Below, piece by piece: positions 10,480 through 29,304 of a stretch of 64,000 bases of DNA; position 1 is the first letter of the stretch; every line of letters starts with the position of its first letter. Origin of the DNA: Paraburkholderia sp. D15. GTDB lineage: Bacteria > Pseudomonadota > Gammaproteobacteria > Burkholderiales > Burkholderiaceae. Under the pieces are notes generated by a model. The model did no database searches and was not told where the DNA came from. It saw only the letters and a program-made list of their open reading frames with translations. The position numbers and the translations under genes were made by a program. The DNA lies in the NCBI RefSeq assembly GCF_029910215.1, contig NZ_CP110396.1:1736001-1800000 (forward strand), written 5' to 3'.

Positions 10480-11553
10480 TCAGAACGAGTGATGGATACC
10501 CGTCAGGAAGATCGTCTGATTGCGGCCGCTCGATACGCCCGCGGTAAAGAACGCGGCGTCCGTGTTCGAGCCCGCGCGCTCATAGAGCGCGTTCACGTAC
10601 AACTGCGTCGACTTCGACAGCGAGTAGATATCGCCGATCTCGAACTGGGTCCAGCGATGGCCAGCCAGCGTCGTCGTCGCTGCACCGCCGGCGATGCTGT
10701 TGAACGGCGTGAACTGATAATTCGCGCCCGCATCGTAGCTCTGGTACGTATCCGAATGACCCGCGTATTCCAGCTTCACGCGTGTGTACAAGCCATGCAC
10801 CAGCAGCTTGCCGAACTGATACGACGCGCCGGCGCCCATGTTCTCGACCTTGTCGGCCGTGTAATTCGCGGCGGCCACGCCCTGGAAGTTGGCGATACCG
10901 GTCGTGACGATGGACGGCGTGCGGTTGTGCTCATTTGCATACGTCGCGCCGGCCTTGAACGGACCGTTCTCGTAGGTCAACGCGAAGCTCAGCGTCTTGC
11001 CCGTCGAGAAGTTGGTCGTGTTGCCGAGTCCCATCATCGCGCCGACCGAAAAGCCGGCGAAATTCGCCGAGCGGAATTTGACGGAGTTGTCGAACGGCAC
11101 CACGCCCGTATCCGCGAGTTCGTCGATATTGCCCGGATGGAACGCGTACCAGCTTGCGGCCAGATAGGCGGTGCTCAGCGGGTCCAGCACGTCGAAGCTG
11201 AACGGCGTCTGATGGCCGAGCGTGATCGAGCCGATGCTGTTCGAGCTCAGCCCGACAAAAGCCTGCCGGTTGAACAGCACGCCGGATTTAGCGAATGCGC
11301 CCGTGTTCGTATAGAAACCGTTCTCCAGCTGGAAAACCGTCTTCAGGCCGCCGCCCAGATCTTCCACGCCCTTCAGGCCCCAGCGGTCCGGCTGCATATT
11401 GCCCTGTTCCTCGATCCACTTCGAACTGCCGCCCGCATTGCTGATGTACGCGATACCGGCATCCAGGCTGCCGTATAGCGTCACACTGCTCTGCGCCCAT
11501 GCGCCCGTCGTTGCGCAGATTGCCGTCAAGCCGGCTGCAATGATGTGCTTCAC
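10480..11553 (-). CDS. Gram-negative outer-membrane porin (Burkholderia OmpC-like)
   Basis: The 357-residue protein has a signal peptide (about 1-20, ending GAWAQ) followed by SSVTLYGSLDAGIAYISNAG, the classic first strand of betaproteobacterial trimeric porins. It ends in an aromatic residue (HHSF), as required for BAM-mediated insertion. Alternating beta strands with GLSSNSIGSITLGHQ fill the middle. The start is a GTG at 11553 with GGAGA 7 bases upstream. It is divergent from the oxygenase cluster across a regulatory region of about 440 bases, so it probably admits the substrate of that pathway. Confidence 0.93.
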   Translation of the reverse strand: MKHIIAAGLTAICATTGAWAQSSVTLYGSLDAGIAYISNAGGSSKWIEEQGNMQPDRWGLKGVEDLGGGLKTVFQLENGFYTNTGAFAKSGVLFNRQAFVGLSSNSIGSITLGHQTPFSFDVLDPLSTAYLAASWYAFHPGNIDELADTGVVPFDNSVKFRSANFAGFSVGAMMGLGNTTNFSTGKTLSFALTYENGPFKAGATYANEHNRTPSIVTTGIANFQGVAAANYTADKVENMGAGASYQFGKLLVHGLYTRVKLEYAGHSDTYQSYDAGANYQFTPFNSIAGGAATTTLAGHRWTQFEIGDIYSLSKSTQLYVNALYERAGSNTDAAFFTAGVSSGRNQTIFLTGIHHSF

Positions 11554-11992: not shown

Positions 11993-12307
11993 ATGACTGA
12001 ACAATGGCGCTGCGCCGGCCATGCCGGCGACCTGTCCGACGACGCGCCGATCGAGTTCAAGCTCGACGGCACCGAGATCGGCATCTACAAGGTGGGCGAT
12101 GCGCTATACGCGCTGGAAAACGTCTGCCCTCATGCGTACGCGTTGCTGACGCAGGGCTTTATCGACGGCGACACGGTCGAGTGCCCGCTGCACGAAGCCG
12201 TGTTCCATATCCCGACCGGCAAGTGCCTGAAAGAACCCGGCGGCCGCGACCTGAAGATGTACTCGGTACGTCTCGCCGGTGAAGAAATCCAGATCAAGGT
12301 GGAATGA
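11993..12307 (+). CDS. Rieske [2Fe-2S] ferredoxin of a three-component oxygenase
   Basis: The 104-residue soluble ferredoxin has the Rieske ligands Cys45-x-His47 and Cys64-x-x-His67 (CPH and CPLH), which place it among the electron carriers of ring-hydroxylating dioxygenases. It should pass electrons from the FAD reductase encoded at 22906 to the oxygenase at 12669. AGGAG lies about 10 bases before the ATG. It is the first gene of the long cluster and directly follows the palindromic operator. Confidence 0.93.
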   Translation: MTEQWRCAGHAGDLSDDAPIEFKLDGTEIGIYKVGDALYALENVCPHAYALLTQGFIDGDTVECPLHEAVFHIPTGKCLKEPGGRDLKMYSVRLAGEEIQIKVE

Positions 12308-12308
12308 C

Positions 12309-12620
12309 ATGCGAGAGCAAATCGTGAACTTCAATCCCTTCCTGAAGCCGTGGCTCGCGCCGCAGCCGAACAACGTCGCGGGCAAGGGCGTGATCGAGAA
12401 ACCGGGCGAAACCGGCAACTTCATCTGGCAAACGCGCAAGGCCGAGCCGACCCAATACGAGAACGATTTCGGCGATGCGCTCGAAAAAGTGTTCGAGGCT
12501 GGCGCGACGGAATTGCAGGAAGTGGCCGACGGGTTGAATCGCGTGGGTTTCCGTACGCCGGAAGGCAATGCGTGGAACGCCGAGCGCCTCGCCGCCGAAT
12601 TCCGCCTGCTCGCCGAATAG
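12309..12620 (+). CDS. Small recombinase-like helix-turn-helix protein
   Basis: The 103-residue protein ends in a segment (ELQEVADGLNRVGFRTPEGNAWNAERLAAEF) like the small helix-turn-helix found near the end of serine recombinases. No resolvase catalytic domain is present, so recombination is not expected. The start is the ATG at 12309, one base after the ferredoxin stop. Its position between ferredoxin and oxygenase alpha suggests a role tied to the oxygenase, perhaps as an accessory subunit or regulator, but this is inference from context only. Confidence 0.7.
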   Translation: MREQIVNFNPFLKPWLAPQPNNVAGKGVIEKPGETGNFIWQTRKAEPTQYENDFGDALEKVFEAGATELQEVADGLNRVGFRTPEGNAWNAERLAAEFRLLAE

Positions 12621-12668
12621 GCGCGCATTTCCGAACACGTTCACCGCTTTCGTTTCTGGAGTCTGTTC

Positions 12669-13781
12669 ATGACGTCCCCCCATACCGCTCAAGGCCCGGA
12701 CCAATCCGCGGCCGATCCGATCCAGGCTTACCTGGACAAAGGTCTGCGCAACTACTGGTATCCCGTCGCGCCGAGCTGGCAAGTCGGCGACGCGCCGGTC
12801 GGCATCACGCGCCTCGGCGATCAGATCGTCCTGTGGCGCGATAAGGAAGGCCACGTCCACGCGCTCGAAGACCGCTGCCCGCATCGCGGCGCGCGTCTGT
12901 CGCTCGGCTGGAATCTCGGCGGCAGCGTCGCGTGCTGGTATCACGGCATCGAGATCGACGGCAGCGGCGAGGTCACGAAAGTGCCGGCTGTCTCGAACTG
13001 TCCGCTGGAAGGGCAGAAGTGCGTGAAGTCCTATCCGGTCGAAGAGCATGCCGGCGCGATCTTCCTGTGGTTCGGCGACGACGCACACAAGCAGCCCACG
13101 CCGCTCGCGCTGCCGGAAGAACTGGTCGGCGAGGAATACGCGAACTTCCTGTGCATGTCGAACTGGAAGTGCAATTACCAGTACGCGATCGACAACGTGA
13201 TGGACCCGATGCACGGCGCCTACCTGCATGCCACGTCGCACTCGATGGCCGAAGGCGACAAGCAGGCCGACATGCGCGTGCGCAAAACGGAAACCGGCTT
13301 GATGTTCGAGAAAGTCGGCCAGCGCGACGTGAACTTCGACTGGGTGGAACTCGGCGAAACCGGTTGCCTGTGGATGCGTCTCGCGATTCCGTACAAGAAG
13401 AAGTTCGGCCCGGGCGGCAACTTCGGGATCATCGGCTTCGCCGTTCCCGTCGATGAAAACCATTGCCAGGTGTACTTCTGGCGGACGCGCAAGGTGTCGG
13501 GCTGGCAGCGCGACGCGTGGCGCTTCATGTATCGCAATCGTCTGGAAGGTCTGCATTGGGCGGTGCTGGAACAAGACCGCTACGTGCTGGAAAGCATGGC
13601 GCCGAATGCGCGCGAACACGAATTCCTCTATCAGCACGATGTCGGCATGACGCGCGTGCGTCGCATGTTGCGTCAACGCGCGCAGCAGGATTTCGCCGCA
13701 CTGGATGCGCATCGCGCGCAAACGGCGAGCGCGGCGCCGGGCGCCGCCGCTACCGCCGACGCGAGCCACAGCCATGCATAA
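12669..13781 (+). CDS. Rieske non-haem iron oxygenase, alpha subunit
   Basis: The 370-residue protein has the Rieske ligands C70-P-H72 and C89-W-Y-H92. The mononuclear iron site is DPMHGAYLH (Asp179, His182, His187). It belongs to the single-subunit (phthalate/vanillate-like) oxygenases, because no beta-subunit gene is present. It would hydroxylate an aromatic ring or demethylate a substituent, using electrons from the upstream ferredoxin. The last 25 residues are an Ala-rich tail. It overlaps the following dehydrogenase gene by 8 bases. Confidence 0.92.
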   Translation: MTSPHTAQGPDQSAADPIQAYLDKGLRNYWYPVAPSWQVGDAPVGITRLGDQIVLWRDKEGHVHALEDRCPHRGARLSLGWNLGGSVACWYHGIEIDGSGEVTKVPAVSNCPLEGQKCVKSYPVEEHAGAIFLWFGDDAHKQPTPLALPEELVGEEYANFLCMSNWKCNYQYAIDNVMDPMHGAYLHATSHSMAEGDKQADMRVRKTETGLMFEKVGQRDVNFDWVELGETGCLWMRLAIPYKKKFGPGGNFGIIGFAVPVDENHCQVYFWRTRKVSGWQRDAWRFMYRNRLEGLHWAVLEQDRYVLESMAPNAREHEFLYQHDVGMTRVRRMLRQRAQQDFAALDAHRAQTASAAPGAAATADASHSHA

Positions 13782-14541
13782 CGACGCGTTCGCAGCGCTC
13801 CACGGCCGGCGCGTTCTCGTGACCGGCGGCGCGCGCGGTCTCGGCGCGGCGTTCGTGCGCGCGTTGGCGCAGGCCGGCGCGCACACCGTGTTCGGCGACG
13901 TGCTGCACGACGAAGGCAACGCGCTGGCCGCATCGCTGGGTGAGCAGGGACACGCCGTCACCTATCTGCCGCTCGATCTTGCCGATCCCGCGAGCGTCGC
14001 GCAATTCGCGCAGCAAGGCGCGCAACGCCTCGGCGGTCTGGACGCGCTGATCAACAACGCGGCGATCACCCATTCCGGCGGCAAATTCGCCGACGAGTTG
14101 TCCATCGACACGTGGGACGCGGTGATGAACGTCAACGTGCGCGGCACGTGGCTGATGAGCACCGCCGCGCTGCCGTATCTGCGCGAGTCGGGGCGCGGCA
14201 GCATCGTCAACATCGCGTCGGACACGGCGCTGTGGGGCGCGCCGAAGCTGCTCGCCTATGTCGCCAGCAAGGGCGCGGTGATCGCGATGACGCGCTCGCT
14301 CGCGCGCGAGTTCGGCGCGCACAAAGTGACCGTGAATGCGATCGCGCCGGGCCTCACCGAAGTCGAGGCGACCGCCTACGTGCCCGCCGAGCGTCACCAG
14401 TATTACCTGCAAGGCCGCGCGTTGCCGCGCGCTCAAGTGCCCGACGACGTCACCGGGCCCGTGCTGTTCCTGTTGTCCGATGCCGCGCGCTTCGTGACCG
14501 GCCAGTTGCTGCCGGTGAACGGCGGCTTCGTGATGAATTGA
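13774..14541 (+). CDS. Short-chain dehydrogenase/reductase 1
   Basis: The 255-residue classical SDR has the cofactor motif VTGGARGLGAA near the N-terminus, NNAAI, a catalytic Ser in IVNIASD, and Y-x-x-x-K as YVASKG. The Asp in GDVLHDEG after the second strand favours NAD. In this cluster it may oxidise a cis-dihydrodiol or an alcohol made by the oxygenase. The ATG at 13774 lies inside the end of the oxygenase gene; an in-frame upstream extension belongs to that gene's sequence. Confidence 0.9.
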   Translation: MHNDAFAALHGRRVLVTGGARGLGAAFVRALAQAGAHTVFGDVLHDEGNALAASLGEQGHAVTYLPLDLADPASVAQFAQQGAQRLGGLDALINNAAITHSGGKFADELSIDTWDAVMNVNVRGTWLMSTAALPYLRESGRGSIVNIASDTALWGAPKLLAYVASKGAVIAMTRSLAREFGAHKVTVNAIAPGLTEVEATAYVPAERHQYYLQGRALPRAQVPDDVTGPVLFLLSDAARFVTGQLLPVNGGFVMN

Positions 14542-14567
14542 TCATGTCGAATCCAAAGGAGAAAGAG

Positions 14568-15095
14568 ATGGCGGACGCCGATATCGAACGCAAGTCGTGG
14601 GACCAACCCGCGGACGCGAGCTTTGCCCAGTGGCTGGACAGCCGCGTCGCGCGGCTGGAAACGCGTCGCTACGACTGGGACGCGCTGAAGTTTCAGGCCG
14701 ACTACGACCCGAAGTACCGCCGCGCGCAAATGCGCTACGTCGGCACGGGCGGCACGGGCGTCGCGAAGGACATGAACACGGTCCCCGCCGGCGGCTTCAC
14801 GTTTTCGACGATGGTGATTCCGGCCGGCAACATTGGCCCGAGCCATATTCATCGGGATGTCGAAGAAATCTTCTTCGTGCTGCGCGGCAAGATGAAAGTG
14901 GTTTGCGAGAAAGACGGCGAGACGTGGGAAGCGGTGCTCGGCGAACGCGATCTGATCTCGGTGCCGCCGGGTGTGTATCGCACGGAAATCAACATTGGCG
15001 AGGAAGACGCGCTGATGTGCGTGATGCTCGGTTCGCCGAAGCCGATCACGCCGACGTATCCGCCGGATTCGCCGCTCGCCCAGCTCAAGCGCTAG
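14568..15095 (+). CDS. Cupin-domain protein of the oxygenase cluster
   Basis: The 175-residue protein has a single beta-barrel cupin. The metal-binding pattern is GPSHIHRDVEEIFFVLRG in motif 1 and a YRTEIN segment in motif 2, where the usual His is missing or replaced. The start at 14568 is chosen over the ATG at 14544 because GGAG sits 6 bases before it. Cupins in such clusters act as ring-cleaving dioxygenases, isomerases or decarboxylation helpers; which applies here is not clear. It follows the SDR gene by 26 bases. Confidence 0.85.
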   Translation: MADADIERKSWDQPADASFAQWLDSRVARLETRRYDWDALKFQADYDPKYRRAQMRYVGTGGTGVAKDMNTVPAGGFTFSTMVIPAGNIGPSHIHRDVEEIFFVLRGKMKVVCEKDGETWEAVLGERDLISVPPGVYRTEINIGEEDALMCVMLGSPKPITPTYPPDSPLAQLKR

Positions 15096-15142
15096 ACACT
15101 GAACGCCATTTTTTTGTCGTGACGACACCCACGAAGGAAATC

Positions 15143-16138
15143 ATGTCCGCAGTTCCGGCCGTTACCGCCGATCCACATGCCGAGCAGGGCACGCAAGCCG
15201 GGCTCGAAGCGCGCGTCGCGCGCTTTCCCGCGCGGCAGGTCCAGCTCGCGTCGCAACGCGTGGTGAGCTATCGCGAAGCGGACGGCGGCAGCCACGGCGA
15301 TGCGTTGCCGCTGGTGCTGCTGCACGGTATCGGTTCGGGCGCGGCTTCGTGGGTGCAGCAGTTCGAAGCGCTCGGCGCGACGCGCCGGGTGCTGGCGTGG
15401 GACGCGCCGGGTTATGGCGCATCCACGCCGGTCGAGGCGGCCTCGCCGTGCGCCGGCGATTACGCTGCCGTGCTGCGCGAATGGCTCGACGCGTTGGGTA
15501 TCGAGCGCTGCGTGTTGCTGGGGCATTCGCTCGGCGCGATTGTGGCGGGTGCGTTTTGCGCTTCGTCGGGTAGCTCAGGGAGCGCCGGTCTCGCCGTCGC
15601 CCAGCTGGAACGCGTGGCCGGTTTGCTGTTGCTGTCGCCGGCCGGCGGTTACGGCGCGGCCCCCGCCGAATTGCGCGACGCGAAGCGCGACCAACGCCTC
15701 GCCATGCTGCGCGATCTCGGCCCGCAGGGTCTCGCCGGGCAACGCAGCGGCAATATGGTGTCCGCTCATGCGAGCGACGAAGCTCGCGCGTGGGTGCGCT
15801 GGAACATGTCGCGCGTGATTCCGCAGGGCTATGAACAGGCGACGCATCTGCTCGCCAATGCCGACCTCGCCGCCGACCTCGCTCGCTATCGAGCTGGTTT
15901 TCAAGCGCGAGTTCAAGCGCAACTGCAAGCGCGGAATGCAGCGCCCATCGCCATCGCCGTCGGCGCAGAAGACACCATCACGCCCCCTGCCGCCTGCGAG
16001 CACCTCGCCCAGGCCGCGGGCGTGCCGCTTCAGATCGTGCCGCGAGCCGGACACGCCGGCTATATCGAAGCACCCGCCGCTTACACCGCGATCATCGACA
16101 CATTCTGCCGCGCCAGCGACGAACACCGGAGCCAATGA
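15143..16138 (+). CDS. Alpha/beta hydrolase
   Basis: The 331-residue protein has an oxyanion-hole segment (VLLHGIGSGAASW), the nucleophile elbow GHSLGA, an acidic residue in AVGAEDTITPP, and the catalytic His in PRAGHAGYIEAP. This is the layout of meta-cleavage-product hydrolases and related C-C or ester hydrolases. In the cluster it is the natural partner of the VOC dioxygenase. AAGGAA lies about 5 bases before the ATG. The IclR gene starts immediately after its stop codon. Confidence 0.88.
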   Translation: MSAVPAVTADPHAEQGTQAGLEARVARFPARQVQLASQRVVSYREADGGSHGDALPLVLLHGIGSGAASWVQQFEALGATRRVLAWDAPGYGASTPVEAASPCAGDYAAVLREWLDALGIERCVLLGHSLGAIVAGAFCASSGSSGSAGLAVAQLERVAGLLLLSPAGGYGAAPAELRDAKRDQRLAMLRDLGPQGLAGQRSGNMVSAHASDEARAWVRWNMSRVIPQGYEQATHLLANADLAADLARYRAGFQARVQAQLQARNAAPIAIAVGAEDTITPPAACEHLAQAAGVPLQIVPRAGHAGYIEAPAAYTAIIDTFCRASDEHRSQ

Positions 16139-17035
16139 ATGACGCCCGACCTCACTAACGCCGAACGCGACGCGGACGAAGACCGCAGCGAAACGGGCAA
16201 CGACGCCGGCAGCGAAACCGGCTACCGCGTGCCGGGCCTCGAACGCGGTCTGCGCATCCTCACGGAATTCTCGCCGCGCGAGCCGGTGCTCGGCGCACCG
16301 GAACTGTCCCGCCGCCTGAAGATTCCACGCACGACGGTATTCCGTCTGCTGCAAACGCTCGAATCGCTCGGCTTTCTCGAACGCGCCGACAAGGACCGCA
16401 ACTATCGCCTCGGCGTCGCGGTGCTGCGGCTCGGTTTCGAATACCTCAGCTCGCTCGAACTGACCGACCTCGGCTTGCCGGTCATCGAAGCGCTGCGCGA
16501 CGACACCGGCCTCACGACGCACATCGTGATCCGCGACGGACGCGACGTGGTGTTCGTCGCCAAGGCGCAAAGCCACGCACCGATTTTCAGTTCGGTGAAG
16601 GTCAACGTCGGCACGCGTCTGCCCGCTCATGCGACGACCCACGGCCAGGTGCTGATGGGCGACATGACCATCGACGAACTGAGAAAGCTCTATCCCGAAC
16701 CCGAACTCGAACGCTTCACGAAGCAAACGCCAGTCACGCTCGACGATCTGTACGAACGGATTCGCGACGACGCGCGGCGCGGTTTCGCGATCAGCGAATC
16801 GTCGTTCGAACGCGGCATTTCGGTGGTCAGCGCGCCAGTGCGCAACGACACGGGCCGCATCGTCGCGGTGATCACGACGACGATTCCGCGCCACGAGATC
16901 GACGCTTCGCTGCTCGACAGCGGCCTGATCGACAAGGTGCGCCGCGCCGCCGACGAACTCTCGCAACGCCTGAACTACCGGCCGAAGTCGGGTCCGAAGG
17001 CGGGCAGCCAATACATGAAAGCACTGGGGCTCTGA
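16139..17035 (+). CDS. IclR-family transcriptional regulator 2, within the operon
   Basis: The 298-residue protein has a winged helix at about 30-90 (APELSRRLKIPRTTVFRLLQ) and an effector domain at about 105-280. It shares almost all key segments with the IclR at 9334, for example VGTRLPAHAT, HGQVLMGD and SSFERGISVVSAPV. Its place inside the operon means it is produced with the enzymes, consistent with feedback control. The start directly abuts the hydrolase stop, and its own stop overlaps the next ATG (TGATG). Confidence 0.92.
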   Translation: MTPDLTNAERDADEDRSETGNDAGSETGYRVPGLERGLRILTEFSPREPVLGAPELSRRLKIPRTTVFRLLQTLESLGFLERADKDRNYRLGVAVLRLGFEYLSSLELTDLGLPVIEALRDDTGLTTHIVIRDGRDVVFVAKAQSHAPIFSSVKVNVGTRLPAHATTHGQVLMGDMTIDELRKLYPEPELERFTKQTPVTLDDLYERIRDDARRGFAISESSFERGISVVSAPVRNDTGRIVAVITTTIPRHEIDASLLDSGLIDKVRRAADELSQRLNYRPKSGPKAGSQYMKALGL

Positions 17036-17832
17036 TGATCCAAATCGACTTGACCGGACAGGTGGCGGTGGTGACGGGCGGTTCGTCCGGCATCGGCCTC
17101 GCGACTGCCGAACTGTTTCTGCGGGCCGGCGCATCGGTCGCGATCTGCGGCCGCGACAGCGAACGTCTCGGCGAGGCGCAAGCCGCGCTGACCGCGCAGT
17201 TTCCCGACGCGCCGTTGCTCGCGCAACGCTGCGACGTGCTCGATACCGGCGACGTCGCCGCGTTTGCGCAGGCCGTGCAAACGCGCTTCGGCCGCACCGA
17301 CATGCTGGTGAACAACGCGGGTCAGGGACGCGTGTCGACCTTCGCCGACACCACCGACGAAGCCTGGCGCGAAGAACTCGACCTGAAGTATTTCAGCGTG
17401 ATCCGCCCGACCCGCGCGTTCCTGCCGATGCTGCGCGACGCCGCGCATCCGTCGGTGGTCTGCGTGAATTCGCTGCTCGCGCTGCAACCGGAGCCGCACA
17501 TGGTGGCGACCTCGTCGGCGCGCGCCGGTGTGCTGAGTCTCATCAAGTCGCTCGCGGTCGAACTCGCGCCGCAACGCATCCGCGTCAATTCGATTCTGAT
17601 CGGCATCGTCGAATCGGGGCAATGGCGCCGCCGTTACGCGACGCAGGCGCAGCCGGGCCAGAGCTGGGAAGACTGGACCGCCGAACTGGCGCGCAAGAAA
17701 AACATTCCGCTAGGCCGCTTCGGCAAACCCGAAGAAGCCGCTCAAGCGCTTTTTTATCTGGCTACGACGCTGTCGTCCTACACGACGGGCAGTCATATCG
17801 ATGTTTCTGGAGGCGTTGCACGACATGTCTAA
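17035..17832 (+). CDS. Short-chain dehydrogenase/reductase 2
   Basis: The 265-residue SDR has VTGGSSGIGLAT and NNAGQG. The usual catalytic Y-x-x-x-K is not evident: where YxxxK is expected the sequence reads MVATSSARAGVLS. The Ser in VNSLLAL is also unusual. It may therefore be an atypical or weakly active SDR, or use other residues. It overlaps the IclR gene by one base and the TPP enzyme by 8 bases, so all three should be translated together. Confidence 0.85.
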   Translation: MIQIDLTGQVAVVTGGSSGIGLATAELFLRAGASVAICGRDSERLGEAQAALTAQFPDAPLLAQRCDVLDTGDVAAFAQAVQTRFGRTDMLVNNAGQGRVSTFADTTDEAWREELDLKYFSVIRPTRAFLPMLRDAAHPSVVCVNSLLALQPEPHMVATSSARAGVLSLIKSLAVELAPQRIRVNSILIGIVESGQWRRRYATQAQPGQSWEDWTAELARKKNIPLGRFGKPEEAAQALFYLATTLSSYTTGSHIDVSGGVARHV

Positions 17833-19483
17833 TACAACCACCGTTGGCGAACTGATCGCCGCCTTTCTCGAGCAGTGCGGCGTTCGAACCGCGTTCGGCG
17901 TGATCTCGATCCACAACATGCCGATCCTCGACGCGATCCATCACCGCGGCAAGATCCGCTACGTCGGCGCACGCGGCGAAGCGGGCGCGGTCAACATGGC
18001 CGACGGTCTGGCGCGCGTGTCCGGCGGCCTCGGCGTCGCGTTCACCAGCACCGGCACCGCCGCCGGCAACGCGGCGGGTGCGATGGTCGAAGCGTTGACC
18101 GCGGGCACCGCGCTGCTGCACATCACCGGCCAGATCGAAACCGAATACCTCGATCAGGATCTGGCGTATATCCACGAAGCGCCGGATCAGTTGTCCATGC
18201 TGTCGTCGATTTCGAAGGCCGCGTTTCGCGTGCGCTCGGTCGATACCGCGCTGCCGACCATCCGCGAAGCCGTGCGCGTCGCGCAGACCGCGCCGAGCGG
18301 TCCGGTCAGCGTGGAGATTCCGATCGACATCCAGGCCGCGCAAGTCGAATGGCCCGCCGACATGGCCGCGCCGCACGTCACGACGCTCACGCATTGCAGC
18401 CGCCGCGTCGCGCAACTCGCCGACGCCCTGGCGGGTGCGAAGCGTCCGCTGCTGTGGCTCGGCGGCGGCACGCGCCACGCGACGCGAGCGGTCGAACGTC
18501 TGGTCGCGCTGGGCTTCGGCGTGGTGACGAGCGTGCAAGGCCGCGGCGTGCTGCCCGAGGATCATCCGGCGACGCTCGGCGCGTTCAACGTGCACGCGGC
18601 GGTGGAAAGCTTCTACAAGACCTGCGACGCGCTGGTGGTGGTCGGCTCGCGTCTGCGCGGCAATGAAACGCTGAAGTACAAGCTCGCGCTGCCGCAACCG
18701 CTGTATCGCGTCGATGCCGATGCGCTCGCCGATAACCGCGGCTACCGCAACGAGATGTTCATTCACGGCGACGCCTCCGCCGTGCTCGACGAACTGGCGA
18801 CGCTGCTCGAAAGCCGCCTGAAGGTCGATCCCACTTTCGCCGCCGATCTGGCCGCCGCGCGCGAAAGCGCCGTCGCCGACGTGGGCAAGGGGCTCGGTCC
18901 GTACAAGAAGCTGGTCGATGCATTGCAGGGCGCCGTGGGCCGCGACTACAACTGGGTACGCGACGTCACGATCTCGAACAGCACCTGGGGCAACCGGATG
19001 CTGAAAATCTTCGCGCCGCGCGCGGGCGTGCATGCGCTCGGCGGCGGCATCGGCCAGGGCATGCAGATGGGCATCGGCGCGGCGCTCGCGGGCAATGCGG
19101 CCAAGACCGTGTGTCTCGTCGGCGACGGCGGTCTGATGGTCAACGTCGGCGAACTCGCGACGGCCGTGCAGGAAAACGCCAACGTGATGATCGTGCTGAT
19201 GAACGATCAGTGCTACGGCGTGATCCGCAACATCCAGGACGCGCAGTACGGCGGCCGGCGGTGCTACGTCGATCTGCATCAGCCGGATTTCGCGCAGTTC
19301 TGCGAGAGCCTCAAGCTCACGCATTTCCGCGTCAAGTCGCTCGATCAGGTCGACGCGGTGATTCGCGAGGGCATGGCGAAGACCGGCCCGGTGCTGGTCG
19401 AGGTGGACATGCTGTCGGTGGGCTCGTTCGCGACCGCCTTCGCGGGGCCGCCGGTCAAGAAAGAGGAGCCGGAACATGCATGA
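17825..19483 (+). CDS. Thiamine-diphosphate-dependent enzyme (acetolactate-synthase/decarboxylase-like)
   Basis: The 552-residue protein has the three-domain layout of the acetolactate synthase/benzoylformate decarboxylase superfamily: an N-terminal PYR domain (catalytic Glu likely in [14 protein letters not shown]), a central domain, and a C-terminal PP domain with [11 protein letters not shown] and the downstream Asn of MNDQCYG, which bind ThDP and Mg. It would decarboxylate or carboligate a 2-oxo acid formed in the pathway. I use the ATG at 17825, inside the SDR end, rather than 17801. Confidence 0.88.
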
Positions 19484-20306
19484 CGCGGGCTACGCGGGGC
19501 ATCACGCACCCGTCGACGTCGCGATGATCGGCTTCGGCGCGATCGGCCAGGCGGTGTATCGCTCGGTCGCCGCCGATCCGACCGTGCGCGTGTCGCACGT
19601 GATCGTGCCGGAGCGGCACATGGCCTCGGTGCGCGATGTCGTGGGCGACGCGGTGGACGTGGTGGCTTCCGTGTCCGCGCTCAGCAGCCAGCCGCATTTC
19701 GCGCTGGAGTGTGCCGGACATAGCGCGCTCGTCGACCACGTCGTGCCGCTGCTGAAGGCCGGCACCGATTGCGCGGTGGCGTCGATCGGCGCGCTGTCCG
19801 ACGTGTTGCTGCTCGACGCGTTGTCCGCCGCGGCCGACGAAGGCGACGCGACGCTGACGCTGCTGTCCGGCGCGATCGGCGGCGTGGACGCGCTGGCCGC
19901 CGCGAAGCTCGGCGGTCTCGACGAAGTGCTGTACACCGGCCGCAAGCCGCCGACCGGCTGGCTCGGCACGCCCGCCGAACAGGTCTGCGATCTGCACGCG
20001 CTGACCGACGAGAAAGTGATTTTCGAAGGCAGCGCGCGTGAAGCCGCGCGGCTCTATCCGAAGAACGCCAACGTGGCCGCGACGATCGCGCTGGCCGGTC
20101 TCGGACTCGACCACACCACCGTGCGGTTGATCGCGGACCCGAACGTGACGCGCAACGTGCACCGCATTCTCGCGCGCGGCGCGTTTGGCGAGATGTCGCT
20201 GGAAATGTGCGGCAAACCGCTGCCGGACAACCCGAAGACCTCCGCATTGACCGCGTATAGCGCGATCCGCGCGTTGCGCAATCGCGCGGCGCGTTGCGTG
20301 ATCTAA
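19476..20306 (+). CDS. nadX: Aspartate dehydrogenase-like oxidoreductase
   Basis: The 276-residue protein has an N-terminal Rossmann fold ([12 protein letters not shown]) and the later GRKPP, with [12 protein letters not shown] and [11 protein letters not shown], typical of L-aspartate dehydrogenase (NadX). The canonical reaction is NAD(P)-linked interconversion of aspartate and iminoaspartate, which can feed NAD synthesis. Here it sits among aromatic-degradation genes with no nadA or nadC, so its true substrate may be another amino or imino acid. It overlaps the TPP enzyme gene by 8 bases. Confidence 0.85.
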
Positions 20307-20337
20307 GCGACCTGCCTACTGGCGGAAGCAGTAGTAG

Positions 20338-20364
20338 CAGAAGTAACAGAAGTAACGGAAGCAA
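20338..20364. repeat. Three tandem 9-bp units between two cluster genes
   Basis: CAGAAGTAA occurs twice and then as CGGAAGCAA, in the short gap between the aspartate-dehydrogenase-like and aldehyde-dehydrogenase genes. Confidence 0.85.
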
Positions 20365-20374
20365 GCTAACCGGA

Positions 20375-21874
20375 ATGACCGACATGACTCACTTCGATAC
20401 CAGCCTCGTGCCCAACGGCGATATTTTTATCGGCGGCGAATGGCGGCAGGGGCGTGGCAACCCGTACAAAAGCCTGTATCCGGCGGATCAGTCGGTCAAC
20501 ATGGAAATCTCCACCGCCAATGCCGACGACGCGCGCGACGCCGTGCAGGCCGCCGATCTCGCGTGGCGCAAGGCGGACTGGTCAGGTCTGAAGCCGCATC
20601 AGCGGGCGCTCGTTCTGTATCGCATCGCCGATCTGATCATGGCGCGTCACGAAGCGCTCGCGCAACTGCAACGCCGCGACAACGGCAAACCGATCGGCGA
20701 AACGCGCGTGCTGGTGGCAAGCGCCGCGAACACCTTCCGTTATTTCGCGGCTTGCCTCGAAACGCTCGACGAAGACGTGACGCCTTCGCGCGGCGACTAT
20801 CTGACCATGAGCGTGTACGAACCGATCGGCGTGATTGCCGCGATCACGCCGTGGAATTCGCCGATCGCCTCCGACGCGCAGAAGCTCGCGCCCGCGTTGG
20901 CGGGCGGCAATGCCGTGGTGTTGAAGCCGGCCGAAGTGACGCCGTTGACCTCGCTGGCGCTGGCGCGCATCTGCGAGGAAGCCGGCGTGCCGAAAGGCGT
21001 GATCAGCGTGCTGCCGGGCAAGGGCTCGGTGATCGGCGACGTGCTGGTGCGTCATCCGCTGGTGAAGAAGGTGTCGTTCACGGGCGGCACCGAAGTGGGC
21101 CGCGGCATCGCGCGCATCGCGGCGGACAAACTGATGCCGGTCTCGCTCGAACTGGGCGGCAAGTCGCCGACCATCGTGTTCGACGACGCCGATCTCGACC
21201 ATGCGGTGAACGGCGTGCTGTACGGCATTTTCAGTTCGTCGGGCGAGGCGTGCATTGCCGGCTCGCGGCTGTTCGTGCAGCGCGCCATCTACGACGCGTT
21301 CATGAAGCGTCTCGCCGAAGGCGCGCGCAAGCTGCGCGTCGGCGATCCGGCGCGCGCCGATACGCAGATGGGTCCGCTGATCACGGCGGCGCATCGCGAA
21401 ACGGTCGAGCGCTATGTCGCGCTCGGTCTCGAAGAGGGCGGCCGCCTGCTGTGCGGCGGCGAGCGTCCGGTCGGCGACGGCCGCGAACACGGCACCTACT
21501 ACCAGCCGACGATTCTCGAAGGCCTCGGCAACAGCGCGCGCATCTGCCAGGAAGAGATTTTCGGGCCGGTGCTGGTGGCCATGCCCTTCGACGACGAAGC
21601 GTCGCTGCTGAAAGACGCGAACGACAGCGTGTTCGGTCTCGCGGCGGGCATCTGGACACGCGACTACAAGCGCGCGTACCGCATCGCGCGCGCGCTCGAA
21701 GCCGGCACGATCTGGATCAATACCTACAAGCTGTTCTCGATCTCCACGCCGTTCAGCGGCTGGAAGGAGAGCGGCATGGGACGCGAGAAAGGCCGGCTCG
21801 GCATCCGCGAATACATGCAACAGAAGAGCCTCTACTGGGGCTTGAACGACGCGCCGCTGGCGTGGGCGAACTGA
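20375..21874 (+). CDS. Aldehyde dehydrogenase (NAD(P)-dependent)
   Basis: The 499-residue protein is a full-length ALDH. It has the Asn of TPWNSPIA, SFTGGTEVGRGIA, the catalytic Glu in LELGGKSP and the catalytic Cys in SSSGEACIAGSR. It belongs to the semialdehyde/betaine-aldehyde type and would oxidise an aldehyde from ring cleavage or decarboxylation to the acid. The start is uncertain between ATGs at 20375 and 20384, and neither has a strong ribosome binding site. Confidence 0.9.
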   Translation: MTDMTHFDTSLVPNGDIFIGGEWRQGRGNPYKSLYPADQSVNMEISTANADDARDAVQAADLAWRKADWSGLKPHQRALVLYRIADLIMARHEALAQLQRRDNGKPIGETRVLVASAANTFRYFAACLETLDEDVTPSRGDYLTMSVYEPIGVIAAITPWNSPIASDAQKLAPALAGGNAVVLKPAEVTPLTSLALARICEEAGVPKGVISVLPGKGSVIGDVLVRHPLVKKVSFTGGTEVGRGIARIAADKLMPVSLELGGKSPTIVFDDADLDHAVNGVLYGIFSSSGEACIAGSRLFVQRAIYDAFMKRLAEGARKLRVGDPARADTQMGPLITAAHRETVERYVALGLEEGGRLLCGGERPVGDGREHGTYYQPTILEGLGNSARICQEEIFGPVLVAMPFDDEASLLKDANDSVFGLAAGIWTRDYKRAYRIARALEAGTIWINTYKLFSISTPFSGWKESGMGREKGRLGIREYMQQKSLYWGLNDAPLAWAN

Positions 21875-21902
21875 TCGGCACGGATCGGCACCGATCGGAC
21901 CC
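21873..21902. repeat. Three tandem 10-bp units at the ALDH stop codon
   Basis: GATCGGCACG, GATCGGCACC and GATCGGACCC follow one another. The first base pair of the array is the last two bases of the TGA stop. Confidence 0.85.
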
Positions 21903-21947
21903 GCAGCGCACACGCAACGGCAACGCAACACACGCAAGAGGCACGTT

Positions 21948-22913
21948 ATGACGATTCTCGGCATCGAACAGATTATTTACGGCGTGACGGACCTCGCCGC
22001 CTGCCGCCGCTTTTTCGCGGACTGGGGCTTGAAGGAAGTCGCGCACGACGAAACGCAGGCGCGCTTCGAAACGCTGAACGGCTGCACGGTGCTCGCCGTC
22101 GATGCGAACGACCCGTCGCTGCCGCCCGCTTTCGAGGACGGTCCGACCTTGCGCGAGGTCACGTGGGGCGTGGCGACGAAGGCGGAGCTCGATGAATTGC
22201 GCGGCCGCTTCGCCGGTCAGCCGGGCCATTTCGAAACCGGCGACGCAGTCGGCTGCATCGATCCCAACGGCATGGCGATTCGCGTCGAGGTCACCCGCAA
22301 GCGCGCGCTCGACATTCACGGTTCGCCGTCGAACGTATGGGGGCAAACGCTGCGCGTCGACCAACCGTCGACGATTTACGAGCGCGCGGAGCCCGTCGAA
22401 GTGGGACACGTGGTGTTCTTCACGAATCGCCTCGCCGAACAGGAAAAGTTCTATCAGGAGCTGCTCGGCTTCGAGATGTCGGATCGCTATCCGGGTCGTG
22501 GCGCGTTCATGCGCTGCGCGCCGCACGGCGGTCACCACGACATTTTTCTGCTGGCGCTGCCGGGCGGCAAGCGCGGCCTGAATCACGTCGCGTTCACCGT
22601 GCGCGATATCCACGAGGTGTTCGGCGGCGGCATGCATATCAGCCGCTGCGGTTGGGATACGCAACTGGGGCCGGGGCGTCATCCGGTGTCGTCGGCGTAC
22701 TTCTGGTACTTCCAGAATCCGGCCGGCGGCTTGATCGAGTACTACGCCGACGAGGATCAGCTCACGCCCGACTGGCAGCCGCGCGACTTCGAACCGGGTC
22801 CGACGGTGTTCGCCGAATGGGCGATCGACGGCGGCATCGACGGCAATACGCGCCGTCAGAAGAACGCCAAGGCGCCGGAAGGCAAGTTCATGACGGAGCG
22901 GAAAAATGACTGA
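21948..22913 (+). CDS. VOC-family extradiol-type ring-cleavage dioxygenase
   Basis: The 321-residue protein has two vicinal-oxygen-chelate domains (about 1-120 and 148-280). The second carries the Fe(II) ligand triad of type I extradiol dioxygenases: His154 (VGHVVFF), His213 (LNHVAFT) and Glu264 (GGLIEYYAD). Meta-cleavage of a catechol-like intermediate is the likely role, placing it downstream of the oxygenase and SDR steps. Ligands in the N-terminal domain are lost, as in BphC-like enzymes. It overlaps the reductase gene by 8 bases. Confidence 0.9.
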   Translation: MTILGIEQIIYGVTDLAACRRFFADWGLKEVAHDETQARFETLNGCTVLAVDANDPSLPPAFEDGPTLREVTWGVATKAELDELRGRFAGQPGHFETGDAVGCIDPNGMAIRVEVTRKRALDIHGSPSNVWGQTLRVDQPSTIYERAEPVEVGHVVFFTNRLAEQEKFYQELLGFEMSDRYPGRGAFMRCAPHGGHHDIFLLALPGGKRGLNHVAFTVRDIHEVFGGGMHISRCGWDTQLGPGRHPVSSAYFWYFQNPAGGLIEYYADEDQLTPDWQPRDFEPGPTVFAEWAIDGGIDGNTRRQKNAKAPEGKFMTERKND

Positions 22914-24171
22914 CGCTGCTGTGGCAAAGGCGCAAGCCGCGCACGAAGGACTCGACGCGCCGCGCACGATCGTTGTGATCGGTGGGGGCCAGGCGGCCGG
23001 TTGGGTGGTGAAGACGCTGCGCAAGGAAGGCTTCGACGGCCGGCTCGTGATGATCGCCGACGAAGTGCATCTGCCGTACGAACGGCCGCCGCTGTCGAAG
23101 GCGGTGCTGGCCGGCGAAGCCGACATCGACACCGTGCGTCTGGTGAAGCCCGACGACTTCGACGCATTGAACGTCGAAGCGTGGCAGCCGGACTGCGCGA
23201 GCGAGGTCGATCGCGAACGGCAGCTCGTGCGGACGCGCTCGGGCCGCGAAGTGCGCTACGACCGGCTGGTGATCGCCACCGGCGGCGCGGCGCGCCGTTT
23301 GCCGGACGCGCTCGTCAACACCTCGCACATTGCCTATCTGCGCACGCTCGACGAAGCCGTCGCGCTCGGCGAGCGCCTGCGCGCCAGCGAACGCGTGCTG
23401 GTGGTGGGCGGCGGCTGGATCGGCCTCGAAGTCGCGGCGACCGCGCGCAAGCTCGGCGTGCAGGCCTCGGTGATCGAAAGCGCGCCGCGTCTGTGCGCGC
23501 GTTCGTTGCCGCCGGTGGTGTCCGGCTTCCTGCTCGACCTGCATCGCGCGAATGGCGTGGATGTGCGGTTGAACGCGTCGCTGGTGAAGCTCGACGATCA
23601 TCCGCACGACGCTAACCGGATTCGCGCGACCTTCGCGGACGGCTCGACGCTGGACGCCGACTTCGCCGTCGCCGGGATCGGCCTGACGCCGCATACGGCG
23701 CTGGCCGAAGCGGCGGGCGTGAAGGTGGACGACGGCATCGTGGTCGATCATTTCGGCGCAACCGACGACCCGCGCATCTTTGCGTGCGGCGATGTGGCCA
23801 ATCATCCGAGCGCGTGGCTCAAGCGGCGCGTGCGGCTGGAGTCGTGGGCGAATGCGCAGAACCAGGCGATCGGCGTGGCGAAGGCCTTGCTCGGCAAGTT
23901 CGAACCGTACGCGGACATTCCGTGGTTCTGGTCCGATCAGTACGACGTCAACCTACAGATTCTCGGCGACATTCCAGCCGACGCGCAGCTCGCCGTGCGC
24001 GGCGAGCTGCCCGGCAAGCGGGCGACGCTGTTCCATCTGGAGGACGGCGCGATTCGCGGCGTGATCGCCATCAATACCCCGCGCGAACTGAAGCTGTCGC
24101 GCAAATGGATGAACCAGGGCCGAACCATCGACCTGGCCACCTTGACCGACGCCTCGACGGCGCTTGCCTAA
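22906..24171 (+). CDS. FAD-dependent ferredoxin reductase
   Basis: The 421-residue protein has an FAD Rossmann motif (VVIGGGQAAGWVVKTLR), the pair LPYERPPLSK, a second dinucleotide motif for NAD(P)H (VLVVGGGWIGLEVAATAR), and IFACGDVANH. This is the BphA4/pyridine-nucleotide-disulfide class of reductase. It would reduce the Rieske ferredoxin at 11993 with NADH. Although nearly 11 kb from its partners, it is in the same transcription unit. Confidence 0.92.
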   Translation: MTDAAVAKAQAAHEGLDAPRTIVVIGGGQAAGWVVKTLRKEGFDGRLVMIADEVHLPYERPPLSKAVLAGEADIDTVRLVKPDDFDALNVEAWQPDCASEVDRERQLVRTRSGREVRYDRLVIATGGAARRLPDALVNTSHIAYLRTLDEAVALGERLRASERVLVVGGGWIGLEVAATARKLGVQASVIESAPRLCARSLPPVVSGFLLDLHRANGVDVRLNASLVKLDDHPHDANRIRATFADGSTLDADFAVAGIGLTPHTALAEAAGVKVDDGIVVDHFGATDDPRIFACGDVANHPSAWLKRRVRLESWANAQNQAIGVAKALLGKFEPYADIPWFWSDQYDVNLQILGDIPADAQLAVRGELPGKRATLFHLEDGAIRGVIAINTPRELKLSRKWMNQGRTIDLATLTDASTALA

Positions 24172-24196
24172 CCACATCTACGGACGGCACCACGGC

Positions 24197-25600
24197 ATGA
24201 GAACCATCGACAACACCATGGGGGACCGCAGCAGCGCCGGTGTCTCAGGCCCCGTGACCCGGGGCTCGATCATCGCGCGACTCGAACGGTTGCCGAAGAA
24301 CGCGATGCAGGTGCGCGCGCGCATATTGATCGGCCTCGCGACGTTCTTCGACGGCTTCGACGTGATCGCGATCGCGGCCACGCTGCCGATCCTGATCGCG
24401 AAGTGGCACCTGACGCCGTGGGAGATCGGCTTCCTGATCGGCTCCGGTTCGGTCGGCCAGTTGATCGGTGCGTTCGTGTTTCCGTGGTACGCGGAGCGCA
24501 AGGGGCGCGTGCAGGCGATTGCGTTGAGTTCGGGGATTATCGGCATCACCAGCATCGCCTGCGGTTTCGCGCCGAGCTTCGCCGCGTTCGTGGTGCTGCG
24601 CGTGATCCAGGGGCTCGGGCTGGGCGGCGAGTTGCCGGTGGCCGCGACCTACATCAACGAGATCAGCCGCGCGCATGGGCGTGGGCGTTTCGTGCTGCTG
24701 TACGAGATCGTGTTTCCGGTCGGCTTGTTGGCGTCGAATGCGTTGGGCGCGTGGATCGTGCCGCGTTTCGGCTGGCAGACCATGTATTTCATCGGCGGGA
24801 TGCCGTTGATTCTGTTCTTCGTGCTGCGCAAGCTGGTGCCGGAATCGCCGCGCTGGCTCGCCGAGCGCGAACGCATGGCCGATGCCGATGCCGCCGTGCA
24901 TGCGTTCGAACGTGCCGCCAAGGGGCCGCTGCCGCCGGTGTTGCAGTCGGCGGAATTCGAGGCGATGGCCAATCGTCATCCGAAGCGCCGCATGAGCGAC
25001 CTGTTCGGCCCGGCGTATCTGAAGCGGACGCTGGCCGTGGCGATGCTGTGGGTCACCTGCGGCTTCATTCAGTACGGTCTGTCGACCTGGCTGCCGACCA
25101 TCTATCGCACGGTGTATCACGCGCCGCTGCAACTGGCGCTGAACCTGGCGGTCGCGGCTTCCGTGCTGGGCGTGGTGGGATCGCTGACCTGCGCGCTGCT
25201 GGTGGATAAGGTGGGACGCAAGCCGATCATCAATCTGTCGTTCGTGGCATGCGCGCTGTCGCTGCTGCTGGCGGGCGTGTTCCACGATGCGTCGGTGTAT
25301 GTGGTCGCGACGTGCTGCGCGTTTTCGCTGGGCTTCCTTGCCTGCGGTTTTATCACGGCGTATGTGTACACGCCGGAGTTGTACCCGACCAGCATCCGCG
25401 CGATGGGTTGCGGCGTGGGCGGCGCGTGGCTGAAGGTAGCGGCGATTTTCGCGCCGGCGATCGTGTCGAAGACGATGATCGGCGGCAATCTACAGGTGGC
25501 GTTTTATATTCTCGCGGCGGTGCCGTTTCTCGCGGCGGTCGCGGTGCATTTTCTGGGCATCGAGACTAAGGGGAAGGTGCTGGAGCAGCTTGAGGCTTGA
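24197..25600 (+). CDS. MFS transporter, aromatic-acid symporter type
   Basis: The 467-residue protein has twelve hydrophobic segments. It has the AAHS/sugar-porter-like features DGFDVIAIAATLP in helix 1, a WYAERKGRVQ loop after helix 2, and ESPRWLAERER before the central loop. In the second half VDKVGRKP is the repeated motif A. It probably imports the substrate, most likely a carboxylated aromatic. I chose the ATG at 24197; a TTG at 24164 overlapping the reductase gene is possible. A terminator follows. Confidence 0.88.
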   Translation: MRTIDNTMGDRSSAGVSGPVTRGSIIARLERLPKNAMQVRARILIGLATFFDGFDVIAIAATLPILIAKWHLTPWEIGFLIGSGSVGQLIGAFVFPWYAERKGRVQAIALSSGIIGITSIACGFAPSFAAFVVLRVIQGLGLGGELPVAATYINEISRAHGRGRFVLLYEIVFPVGLLASNALGAWIVPRFGWQTMYFIGGMPLILFFVLRKLVPESPRWLAERERMADADAAVHAFERAAKGPLPPVLQSAEFEAMANRHPKRRMSDLFGPAYLKRTLAVAMLWVTCGFIQYGLSTWLPTIYRTVYHAPLQLALNLAVAASVLGVVGSLTCALLVDKVGRKPIINLSFVACALSLLLAGVFHDASVYVVATCCAFSLGFLACGFITAYVYTPELYPTSIRAMGCGVGGAWLKVAAIFAPAIVSKTMIGGNLQVAFYILAAVPFLAAVAVHFLGIETKGKVLEQLEA

Positions 25601-25658: not shown

Positions 25659-25681
25659 TATCGCAATGGCGGAAGGCGAAG

Positions 25682-25709
25682 GGCGCACTGGGTGGTGCGC
25701 CTTTTGTTT
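25682..25709 (+). terminator. Terminator of the oxygenase cluster
   Basis: GGCGCAC pairs with GTGCGCC around a 6-base loop, followed by TTTTGTTT. It lies about 80 bases after the MFS stop and before the convergent J-domain gene. Confidence 0.85.
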
Positions 25710-25754
25710 GGCCAAGGTTTGAACGCGCGGGACGCGTGTCCCGCACGCATTGAC

Positions 25755-27440: not shown

Positions 27441-27446
27441 GGCCAA

Positions 27447-29156: not shown

Positions 29157-29304
29157 GTACAGTTTCCGATTCCGTGTCGCGCCCCTCCATGAGGAGATCG
29201 CCCAAGTTTTCGCCGAGGTGCCGCATGGCGAGCCGCGTGTAGCTCCGTCCAATGGCGATAACGGCACACCGCGCGCAAAACTTGAGCGTCATGGCGCGAG
29301 GGAA

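Follow-up and report, generated by a model that had tools for sequence, protein, structure and literature searches.

A widespread Rieske oxygenase gene cluster of Paraburkholderia sp. D15 as a candidate pathway for the mineralization of kynurenate or xanthurenate

Kynurenic acid is a tryptophan by-product of animals, plants, and microbes. The window analyzed here is a stretch of 64,000 nucleotides from Paraburkholderia sp. D15 (C2:1736001-1800000 of an 8.33 Mb genome in three contigs). It holds fourteen tightly packed genes on the plus strand (11993-25600), with a hairpin terminator at the 3' end, and this cluster would equip the cell to import and mineralize kynurenate or its 8-hydroxy form xanthurenate, both 4-oxoquinoline-2-carboxylates. 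Judging from sequence, we favor this reading with modest confidence. The gene order is Rieske ferredoxin, HTH_62 protein, oxA (oxygenase alpha subunit), short-chain dehydrogenase/reductase 1 (SDR1), cupin, alpha/beta hydrolase, IclR regulator, SDR2, thiamine diphosphate (TPP) enzyme, aspartate dehydrogenase (AspDH), aldehyde dehydrogenase (ALDH), VOC dioxygenase, ferredoxin reductase, and MFS transporter. Nine of these were treated as the core, namely the oxygenase, SDR1, SDR2, VOC and TPP enzymes, ALDH, cupin, hydrolase, and AspDH.

A kynurenate (quinoline) pathway was reportedly described by Hayaishi and co-workers in Pseudomonas fluorescens in 1961-63, and its enzymes are said to include EC 1.14.99.2, 1.3.1.18, and 1.13.11.10. 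The historical route runs from kynurenate through the 7,8-dihydrodiol, 7,8-dihydroxykynurenate, the 8,8a extradiol product, an ene-reduced 2-oxo acid, and an aldehyde to 5-(2-carboxyethyl)-4,6-dihydroxypicolinate. Strains of Delftia acidovorans and P. fluorescens are known for the quinoline pathway. The cluster encodes enzyme types fit for each activity of this route, with a consistent logic: the core supplies one type for each of the six historical activities and exactly three extra enzymes, the cupin, the hydrolase, and AspDH. In the scheme that we propose, the substrate would enter through the porin and the MFS transporter, and the ferredoxin, oxygenase, and reductase would form kynurenate 7,8-dihydrodiol (step 1), which SDR1 would convert to 7,8-dihydroxykynurenate (step 2). 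The VOC enzyme would break the 8-8a bond to give a pyridine bearing an unsaturated 2-oxo-acid chain (step 3), the C=C bond of which SDR2 may reduce (step 4), followed by a presumed decarboxylation by the TPP enzyme (step 5) and formation of 5-(2-carboxyethyl)-4,6-dihydroxypicolinate by ALDH (step 6). The cupin is predicted to put O2 across the C4-C5 bond (step 7) and the hydrolase to cut the N1-C6 amide, releasing 2-oxoglutarate and aminofumarate or its tautomer iminosuccinate (step 8), which AspDH would convert to L-aspartate (step 9).

The element balance holds at every step of this nine-step scheme, and it is the only one we found that gives every cluster enzyme a job. It would explain the presence of AspDH, because ring opening would release iminosuccinate, the substrate of that enzyme. 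An earlier sequence-only reading had taken AspDH and the TPP enzyme as signs of an amino-acid-like or 2-oxo-acid side chain on the substrate. The first is probably more simply explained if the ring nitrogen departs in iminosuccinate, and the second if a 2-oxo acid arises in ring cleavage instead of being part of the substrate; a substrate with an amino-acid side chain is not supported as proposed. What the sequences show is which genes are present, how they are linked and conserved, and which catalytic residues they keep. The chemistry of steps 1-6 is largely that of the historical route; we infer the assignment of enzymes to steps throughout, and all of steps 7-9.

Literature searches found no paper that names the substrate of the cluster or ties its genes to kynurenate, and no gene for the historical kynurenate-pathway enzymes; the cluster genes surfaced in transcriptome, transposon sequencing (Tn-seq), and similar mentions only. 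The sequence-only reading called the cluster uncharacterized, and this holds for the literature searched. The cluster is not a one-off but occurs widely. As far as the available parts of these papers go, titles cited by PMC11354673 and PMC5610271 deal with how Pseudomonas breaks down kynurenate and forms glutamate, and names of intermediates of the kynurenate route appear in PMC11364965 and PMC10543884.

The enzymes of the first steps carry the expected active sites. In OxA, the ligands of the Rieske center and the mononuclear iron (C70, H72, C89, H92, D179, H182, H187, D303) are conserved in 34 homologues, and with reductase, ferredoxin, and a terminal oxygenase holding both iron-ligand sets, the cluster encodes a three-component Rieske oxygenase by sequence. 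The best PDB match of OxA is DdmC, with carbazole dioxygenase among the next, and the best NCBIfam scores of the ferredoxin go to AndAb/HcaC-type ferredoxins, under the cut-offs of those models. The VOC protein has the 2-His-1-Glu set (H154, H213, E264) and the catalytic His/His/Tyr set (H197, H245, Y254) of type I extradiol dioxygenases in 34/34 homologues, and we take these residues to form a working site. The sequence-only reading had proposed a cluster for aromatic catabolism in which a three-component oxygenase and an extradiol enzyme act by way of a catechol-type intermediate; this part of it is supported, and the VOC active site is intact. SDR1 keeps Y162/K166 in 32/32 homologues, and its gene directly follows oxA in 30 of 41 loci (a set described below).

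For the later steps, the picture is more mixed. SDR2 has Thr159 in place of the catalytic Tyr and Arg163 in place of the Lys in 31/31 homologues and so lacks the classical Tyr-x3-Lys motif. It may suit a non-alcohol substrate, because this pair is lost while SDR1 keeps the normal one. Its nearest PDB entries, 3lf1/3lf2 ("Q9HYA2"), match near full-length with 364 bits; Q9HYA2 is presumably a P. aeruginosa PAO1 protein of no assigned function, and a paper on it is said to describe an atypical catalytic center. In the TPP enzyme E52 is conserved, the hydrolase retains its S129-D277-H304 triad in at least 95% of 30 homologues, and AspDH scores above the curated NadX/PRK13303 cut-off (539 against 479 bits). 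H93, H95, and E99 of the cupin are conserved; its PDB similarity to quercetinase is weak (E 2e-4), and an AlphaFold2 model is beta-strand-rich (pLDDT 74.7). The cupins of the 41 loci fall into two sequence types. As a side observation, a cupin of about 315 aa with a different metal motif mostly takes the place of the short cupin in L147, L148, L149, and in loci from the order of G468.

Conservation ties these genes together. A search of the genome collection with the TPP protein gave at least 579 confirmed relatives, of which the best 80 loci were kept; the closest by the TPP gene, among the matches listed, are Paraburkholderia at 94-95%. In these best 80 of at least 579, the genes found are colinear and on one strand in 80/80 loci, and all 14 are present in 74/80. 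Chance linkage is excluded because this colinearity is kept throughout. In the remaining six loci, between one and five genes are missing; L030, L039, L048, L057, and L093 are short loci that run into contig ends, and the MFS gene of L052 is split into pieces. The conserved unit also reaches upstream, where a divergent porin gene and a second IclR gene are kept in all 73 loci longer than 21 kb.

A wider set of 41 loci was anchored on the oxygenase or the HTH_62 protein and comprises 11 plasmid-collection records (of 26, 11 were examined) and 30 genomes; excluded were G794, which belongs to the genus of the window, and the additional paralogues of the oxygenase in G723 (L132, L133) and G566. 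A first count gave 22/41 complete cores, which rose to 31/41 with extra flanks and two lowered cut-offs and stands at 29/41 with the original, stricter ones, a Streptomyces and G901 making the difference. Complete cores were seen in loci of Klebsiella, Acinetobacter, Novosphingobium, Paracoccus, and Streptomyces, and the named organisms with such cores include Alpha-, Beta-, and Gammaproteobacteria besides the Streptomyces. Cluster carriers include Klebsiella pneumoniae, Acinetobacter baumannii, Novosphingobium, Pseudosulfitobacter, Nitratireductor, Paracoccus, Streptomyces chartreusis, and Cupriavidus. Six of the ten incomplete cores are truncated where a contig or record ends (Caballeronia M1242, G566, G559, G602, G276, G1047). 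AspDH is present in 35/41 loci and the cupin in 39/41. The cluster is a minority trait, found in 12/300 genomes of the order of the window at E 1e-60 and in 16/292 genomes at E 1e-80 in the order of G468, which likeness to named records suggests is Rhodobacterales. Names give little guidance: the 120 best of 2158 homologues have generic names or none.

While the nine core enzymes are mostly constant, the transporters (MFS, NMT1-type ABC, or TRAP) and electron-transfer partners vary, with a flavodoxin or VanB-type reductase nearby in some loci. We read this as the pattern expected of one pathway with exchangeable accessories. Plasmid pNK84 of Caballeronia sp. NK8 (L109, 6268-37016) carries a full cluster copy and then a second, partial copy with a molybdenum (Mo) hydroxylase; the ferredoxin and HTH_62 protein accessions of the two copies are identical.

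The HTH_62 protein appears to be a companion of this oxygenase. Among 299 genomes, the one holding the window included, the nine strongest HTH_62 matches, ranked ahead of eleven weaker ones, all lie in oxA-bearing stretches. Where seen, the gene adjoins the oxygenase gene or sits a few genes off. In the AlphaFold2 model (pLDDT 71.9), the N-terminal half is of low confidence, and the half toward the C terminus is helical and confidently predicted. The protein may bind DNA, or it may bind the oxygenase or act in its maturation.

Genes next to the cluster offer clues to the substrate. Mo hydroxylases act on N-heteroaromatics, among other substrates. One such gene lies directly 3' of oxA on the same strand in G602, G682, and G718, which belong to one genus in the order of the window. 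G718 has full L, M, and S subunits and an SRPBCC protein, and the sets of G602 and G682 are cut by contig ends. On pNK84, three subunits and an SRPBCC protein lie downstream of the second ferredoxin-HTH_62-oxA-TPP-VOC copy, and the large subunit shares 63% identity with that of G718. A co-directional Mo hydroxylase counts for kynurenate because such an enzyme would be expected for the conversion of quinaldate to kynurenate. We rejected it as a proven quinoline enzyme, since PDB and NCBIfam matches were equivocal, and did not count the Mo gene of L131, which is CO-dehydrogenase-like and on the opposite strand.

Near the cluster there are also genes for an FAD monooxygenase (13/41 loci), a sulfatase (6/41), and RidA (4/41). 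The three would be consistent with xanthurenate, a sulfate of it, and an imine product. Xanthurenate, its 8-O-sulfate, and its 8-O-glucoside are natural products and would fit these accessory genes, as would other phenolic acids. In L143, L144, L178, L179, L181, and L182, all in the order of G468, the sulfatase gene adjoins the cluster, accompanied in L144 by genes for a TRAP transporter and an FAD monooxygenase. On Novosphingobium pHR1a (L107, 2157-10366), a TonB-dependent receptor and a GH3 glucosidase are encoded directly ahead of the TPP, AspDH, and ALDH genes, and the glucosidase suggests a glycoside form of the substrate.

Linkage to tryptophan-kynurenine genes was considered as proof of the substrate and dropped, as it is close in G468 only. 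In other genomes tryptophan dioxygenase is far off, absent, or on a different contig; in G1067, a congener of G468, it lies about 60 kb from the nearest core gene. It was found in 8/17 carriers of a first set, and in the order of G468 in 14/16 carriers against 10/20 non-carriers, a difference that is weak and confounded by relatedness. The genome of the window has kynB-kynU-kynA at a separate site (kynB and kynU were assigned by sequence and gene order). Were the pathway always fed by endogenous tryptophan, the dioxygenase would be expected along with it; the substrate is more likely imported.

Several observations weigh against kynurenate or xanthurenate as the substrate. An ene-reductase role is unusual for an SDR, and the small cupin has an Arg where the fourth ligand usually sits. 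Among loci with incomplete cores, G323 lacks ALDH (8/9), G723 lacks SDR2 and ALDH (7/9), G718 lacks SDR2 and the hydrolase (7/9), and G682 has 4/9, without SDR1, SDR2, cupin, hydrolase, and AspDH despite 13 kb of upstream coverage. Tryptophan dioxygenase is close to the cluster in G468 alone, where 9.3 kb separate it from the nearest core gene. On pNK84, the Mo hydroxylase genes are not immediately beside oxA, and the best PDB match of these Mo enzymes is 4-hydroxybenzoyl-CoA reductase, with quinoline oxidoreductase fourth. The sulfatase genes could indicate a sulfated substrate. P. aeruginosa presumably also carries the cluster, in a PAO1 block that we place at about PA3504-PA3511 and in which we take PA3505 to be the AspDH ortholog. 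In the available parts of the respective papers, P. aeruginosa without kynU accumulates kynurenate to 100 uM in LB (PMC4938989), which speaks against constant turnover there, and PA3505, tabled under nicotinate metabolism, is predicted by Tn-seq to be essential in three of four host-like media (PMC9732424). Such essentiality weighs against a catabolic role because it is unlike a purely catabolic gene. In A. baumannii exposed to vitamin B12, ABUW_2942, 2943, and 2946 were up and filed under sulfur acquisition in the part of the report available (PMC12892962), which could likewise mean a sulfated substrate; the match of these genes, and of the A1S_ genes below, to the cluster was drawn from product names and gene order (L105), not from sequence.

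The same chemistry might instead serve a different N-heteroaromatic acid with a fused benzo ring. Candidates are quinaldate, quinoline carboxylates that are hydroxylated or sulfated, and alkaloids of plant or marine origin, and kynurenate would then be no more than a side substrate. Relatives of the cluster have genes for a Mo hydroxylase, an FAD monooxygenase, a sulfatase, and a GH3 glucosidase close by, which points this way. Loci without those extras hold complete cores, however, so the substrate of the core should be a shared intermediate, and the formation of aspartate would need the 2-carboxy-4-oxo pattern of kynurenate; we consider this alternative rather unlikely. A classical meta pathway for a monocyclic aromatic acid, with ring hydroxylation or demethylation and extradiol cleavage to aliphatic acids, would account for the gene types and the VanA-type oxygenase. 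It would also agree with A. baumannii data in the available part of PMC5757984, where A1S_0954 and A1S_0956-0958 rose 2.2-3.7 fold with mucin and the same tables list benzoate, catechol, and phenylacetate genes. These data are in line with the kynurenate reading as well. As this pathway leaves AspDH and the cupin without a clear role and would have a TPP enzyme in place of the usual lyases, we regard it as improbable.

Less probable still is a phenylalanine- or m-tyrosine-like substrate, from which 2,3-dihydroxylation, extradiol cleavage, and MhpC-like hydrolysis would release aspartate directly, where the Hca/Mhp route releases succinate. The hydrolase triad is intact, and AndA/Hca models come out best for the ferredoxin and reductase without reaching their cut-offs, but MhpC-type hydrolases match weakly, no MhpD-, MhpE-, or MhpF-type hydratase or aldolase was found among the cluster genes scanned, and the TPP enzyme, cupin, and ALDH would have no role. 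Sulfur scavenging from an aromatic sulfate or sulfonate has the slimmest chance. It is suggested by the sulfatase genes, by the NMT1-type ABC transporters in several loci, and, within the partial source noted above, by the three A. baumannii genes under sulfur acquisition, but a sulfatase is unmatched at the cut-off in 35/41 loci and absent among the cluster genes of the window, and NMT1-type proteins are not known to be sulfur-specific. A cysteate/sulfopyruvate route through AspDH, a TPP decarboxylase, and ALDH was dropped, as the oxygenase and VOC enzyme would be idle.

The kynurenate or xanthurenate cluster proposed here also differs from systems with similar parts. HcaEFCD (3-phenylpropionate dioxygenase)/Mhp shares with it a Rieske ferredoxin, an FAD reductase, an SDR, an extradiol enzyme, and an alpha/beta hydrolase, but the cluster has an alpha-only, VanA-type oxygenase, and the TPP enzyme, ALDH, cupin, and AspDH replace MhpDEF; neither an HcaF beta subunit nor MhpDEF-type enzymes were found among the cluster genes scanned. 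DdmC (dicamba O-demethylase) and carbazole 1,9a-dioxygenase belong to the family of OxA and are among its closest solved structures; their match is mainly to the Rieske half, and the cluster context differs. The Microbacterium bxd benzoxazinoid cluster (PMC11297187), which serves a plant metabolite, has VOC and ALDH genes as well. In the part of that paper available, the bxd pathway is lactonase-led, "aspartate" and "dioxygenase" were not found in the main text, and the gene set does not match; benzoxazinoid degradation was therefore dropped.

The features are collected in Table 1. The gene types, plus-strand positions, and closing terminator of the sequence-only reading agree with Pfam matches, gene boundaries, and the predicted hairpin. 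Its gene list needed refinement: the types are present, but the ferredoxin is Rieske-type, the oxygenase has a single alpha subunit, and the HTH_62 and IclR genes and a separate cupin frame have to be added. Intergenic spacing is -8 to +74 nt, with the ALDH start taken as 20381 (nearest ATG 20375). The open reading frame (ORF) 14597-16138 masks the cupin gene, which lies in a different frame (14568-15095), with the hydrolase then at 15143-16138. No oxygenase beta subunit gene was found among the ORFs scanned, and the two PF00848 matches of the genome lie outside the window. Consensus scans alone gave 11 terminators, no more than the 12.1 expected by chance, and did not find a promoter of the sigma-70 type.

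Table 1. Genes and signals of the cluster and its upstream neighbors (window positions).
Feature	Position	Strand	Evidence
Second IclR-family regulator, upstream neighbor	9334..10353	+	Pfam IclR_C/HTH_IclR; >55% identity in 73/73 long loci
Gram-negative porin, divergent	10480..11553	-	Pfam Porin_4; upstream and divergent in 73/73 long loci
Rieske-type ferredoxin	11993..12307	+	Pfam Rieske; C45 H47 C64 H67 in 12/12
Small HTH_62 ("recombinase-like helix-turn-helix") protein	12309..12620	+	Pfam PF20552 (ORF 12279-12620)
oxA, Rieske oxygenase alpha subunit, VanA/DdmC type, putative kynurenate 7,8-hydroxylase	12669..13781	+	Pfam Rieske and VanA_C
SDR1, putative dihydrodiol dehydrogenase	13774..14541	+	Pfam adh_short; 8 nt overlap with oxA
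Cupin, putative pyridine-ring-cleaving dioxygenase	14568..15095 (alternative start 14544)	+	Weak quercetinase similarity, PDB
Alpha/beta hydrolase, putative amide hydrolase	15143..16138 (alternative start 15119)	+	Pfam Abhydrolase
IclR regulator, PcaR/PobR-like, below model cut-off	16139..17035	+	Inside run
SDR2, atypical SDR, putative ene-reductase	17035..17832	+	PRK07062 over cut-off
TPP enzyme, putative 2-oxo-acid decarboxylase	17825..19483	+	PRK07064, 958 bits vs cut-off 495
AspDH, putative iminosuccinate reductase	19476..20306	+	NF009826, 539 bits vs cut-off 479; PDB 2dc1
ALDH, BADH/HpaE-like, below those cut-offs	20375..21874	+	
Type I extradiol dioxygenase (VOC), putative 7,8-dihydroxykynurenate 8,8a-dioxygenase	21948..22913	+	
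FAD ferredoxin reductase, HcaD/AndAa-like, below those cut-offs	22906..24171	+	
MFS transporter	24197..25600	+	Best NCBIfam score aromatic-acid:H+ symporters, below cut-off
Intrinsic terminator	25670..25715	+	Hairpin -26.4 kcal/mol, z -5.25

Elsewhere in the window, two proteins are encoded in tandem directly past the cluster (25755-29267, minus strand): one is DnaJ-like, with 563 aa and a score under the Pfam cut-off, and the other belongs to the Hsp70 family and has 606 aa. A second VanA-type Rieske oxygenase (44069-45316, plus strand) has 35% identity to the cluster oxygenase over 185 residues, and an RHS-repeat protein with a DUF6531 domain is encoded at 55099-57570 (plus strand).

A broader claim is tentative, and we regard it as possible rather than probable. 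The cluster may represent the complete genetic basis of kynurenate/xanthurenate mineralization, with pyridine opening by a cupin and an amide hydrolase, AspDH as an imine reductase, and HTH_62 as a new Rieske companion, shared by soil bacteria and opportunists (Klebsiella, Acinetobacter, and apparently Pseudomonas), which could then remove a tryptophan metabolite of their host. If the kynurenate reading is right, genes would be assigned to enzyme activities described around 1960, and the occurrence of a "biosynthetic" aspartate dehydrogenase in catabolic clusters would be explained. Annotations of orthologues as acetolactate synthase, betaine-aldehyde dehydrogenase, vanillate demethylase, or NAD biosynthesis enzymes would be corrected. 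For bacteria of soil and rhizosphere and for those that live with hosts, the turnover of kynurenate would become directly testable by gene.

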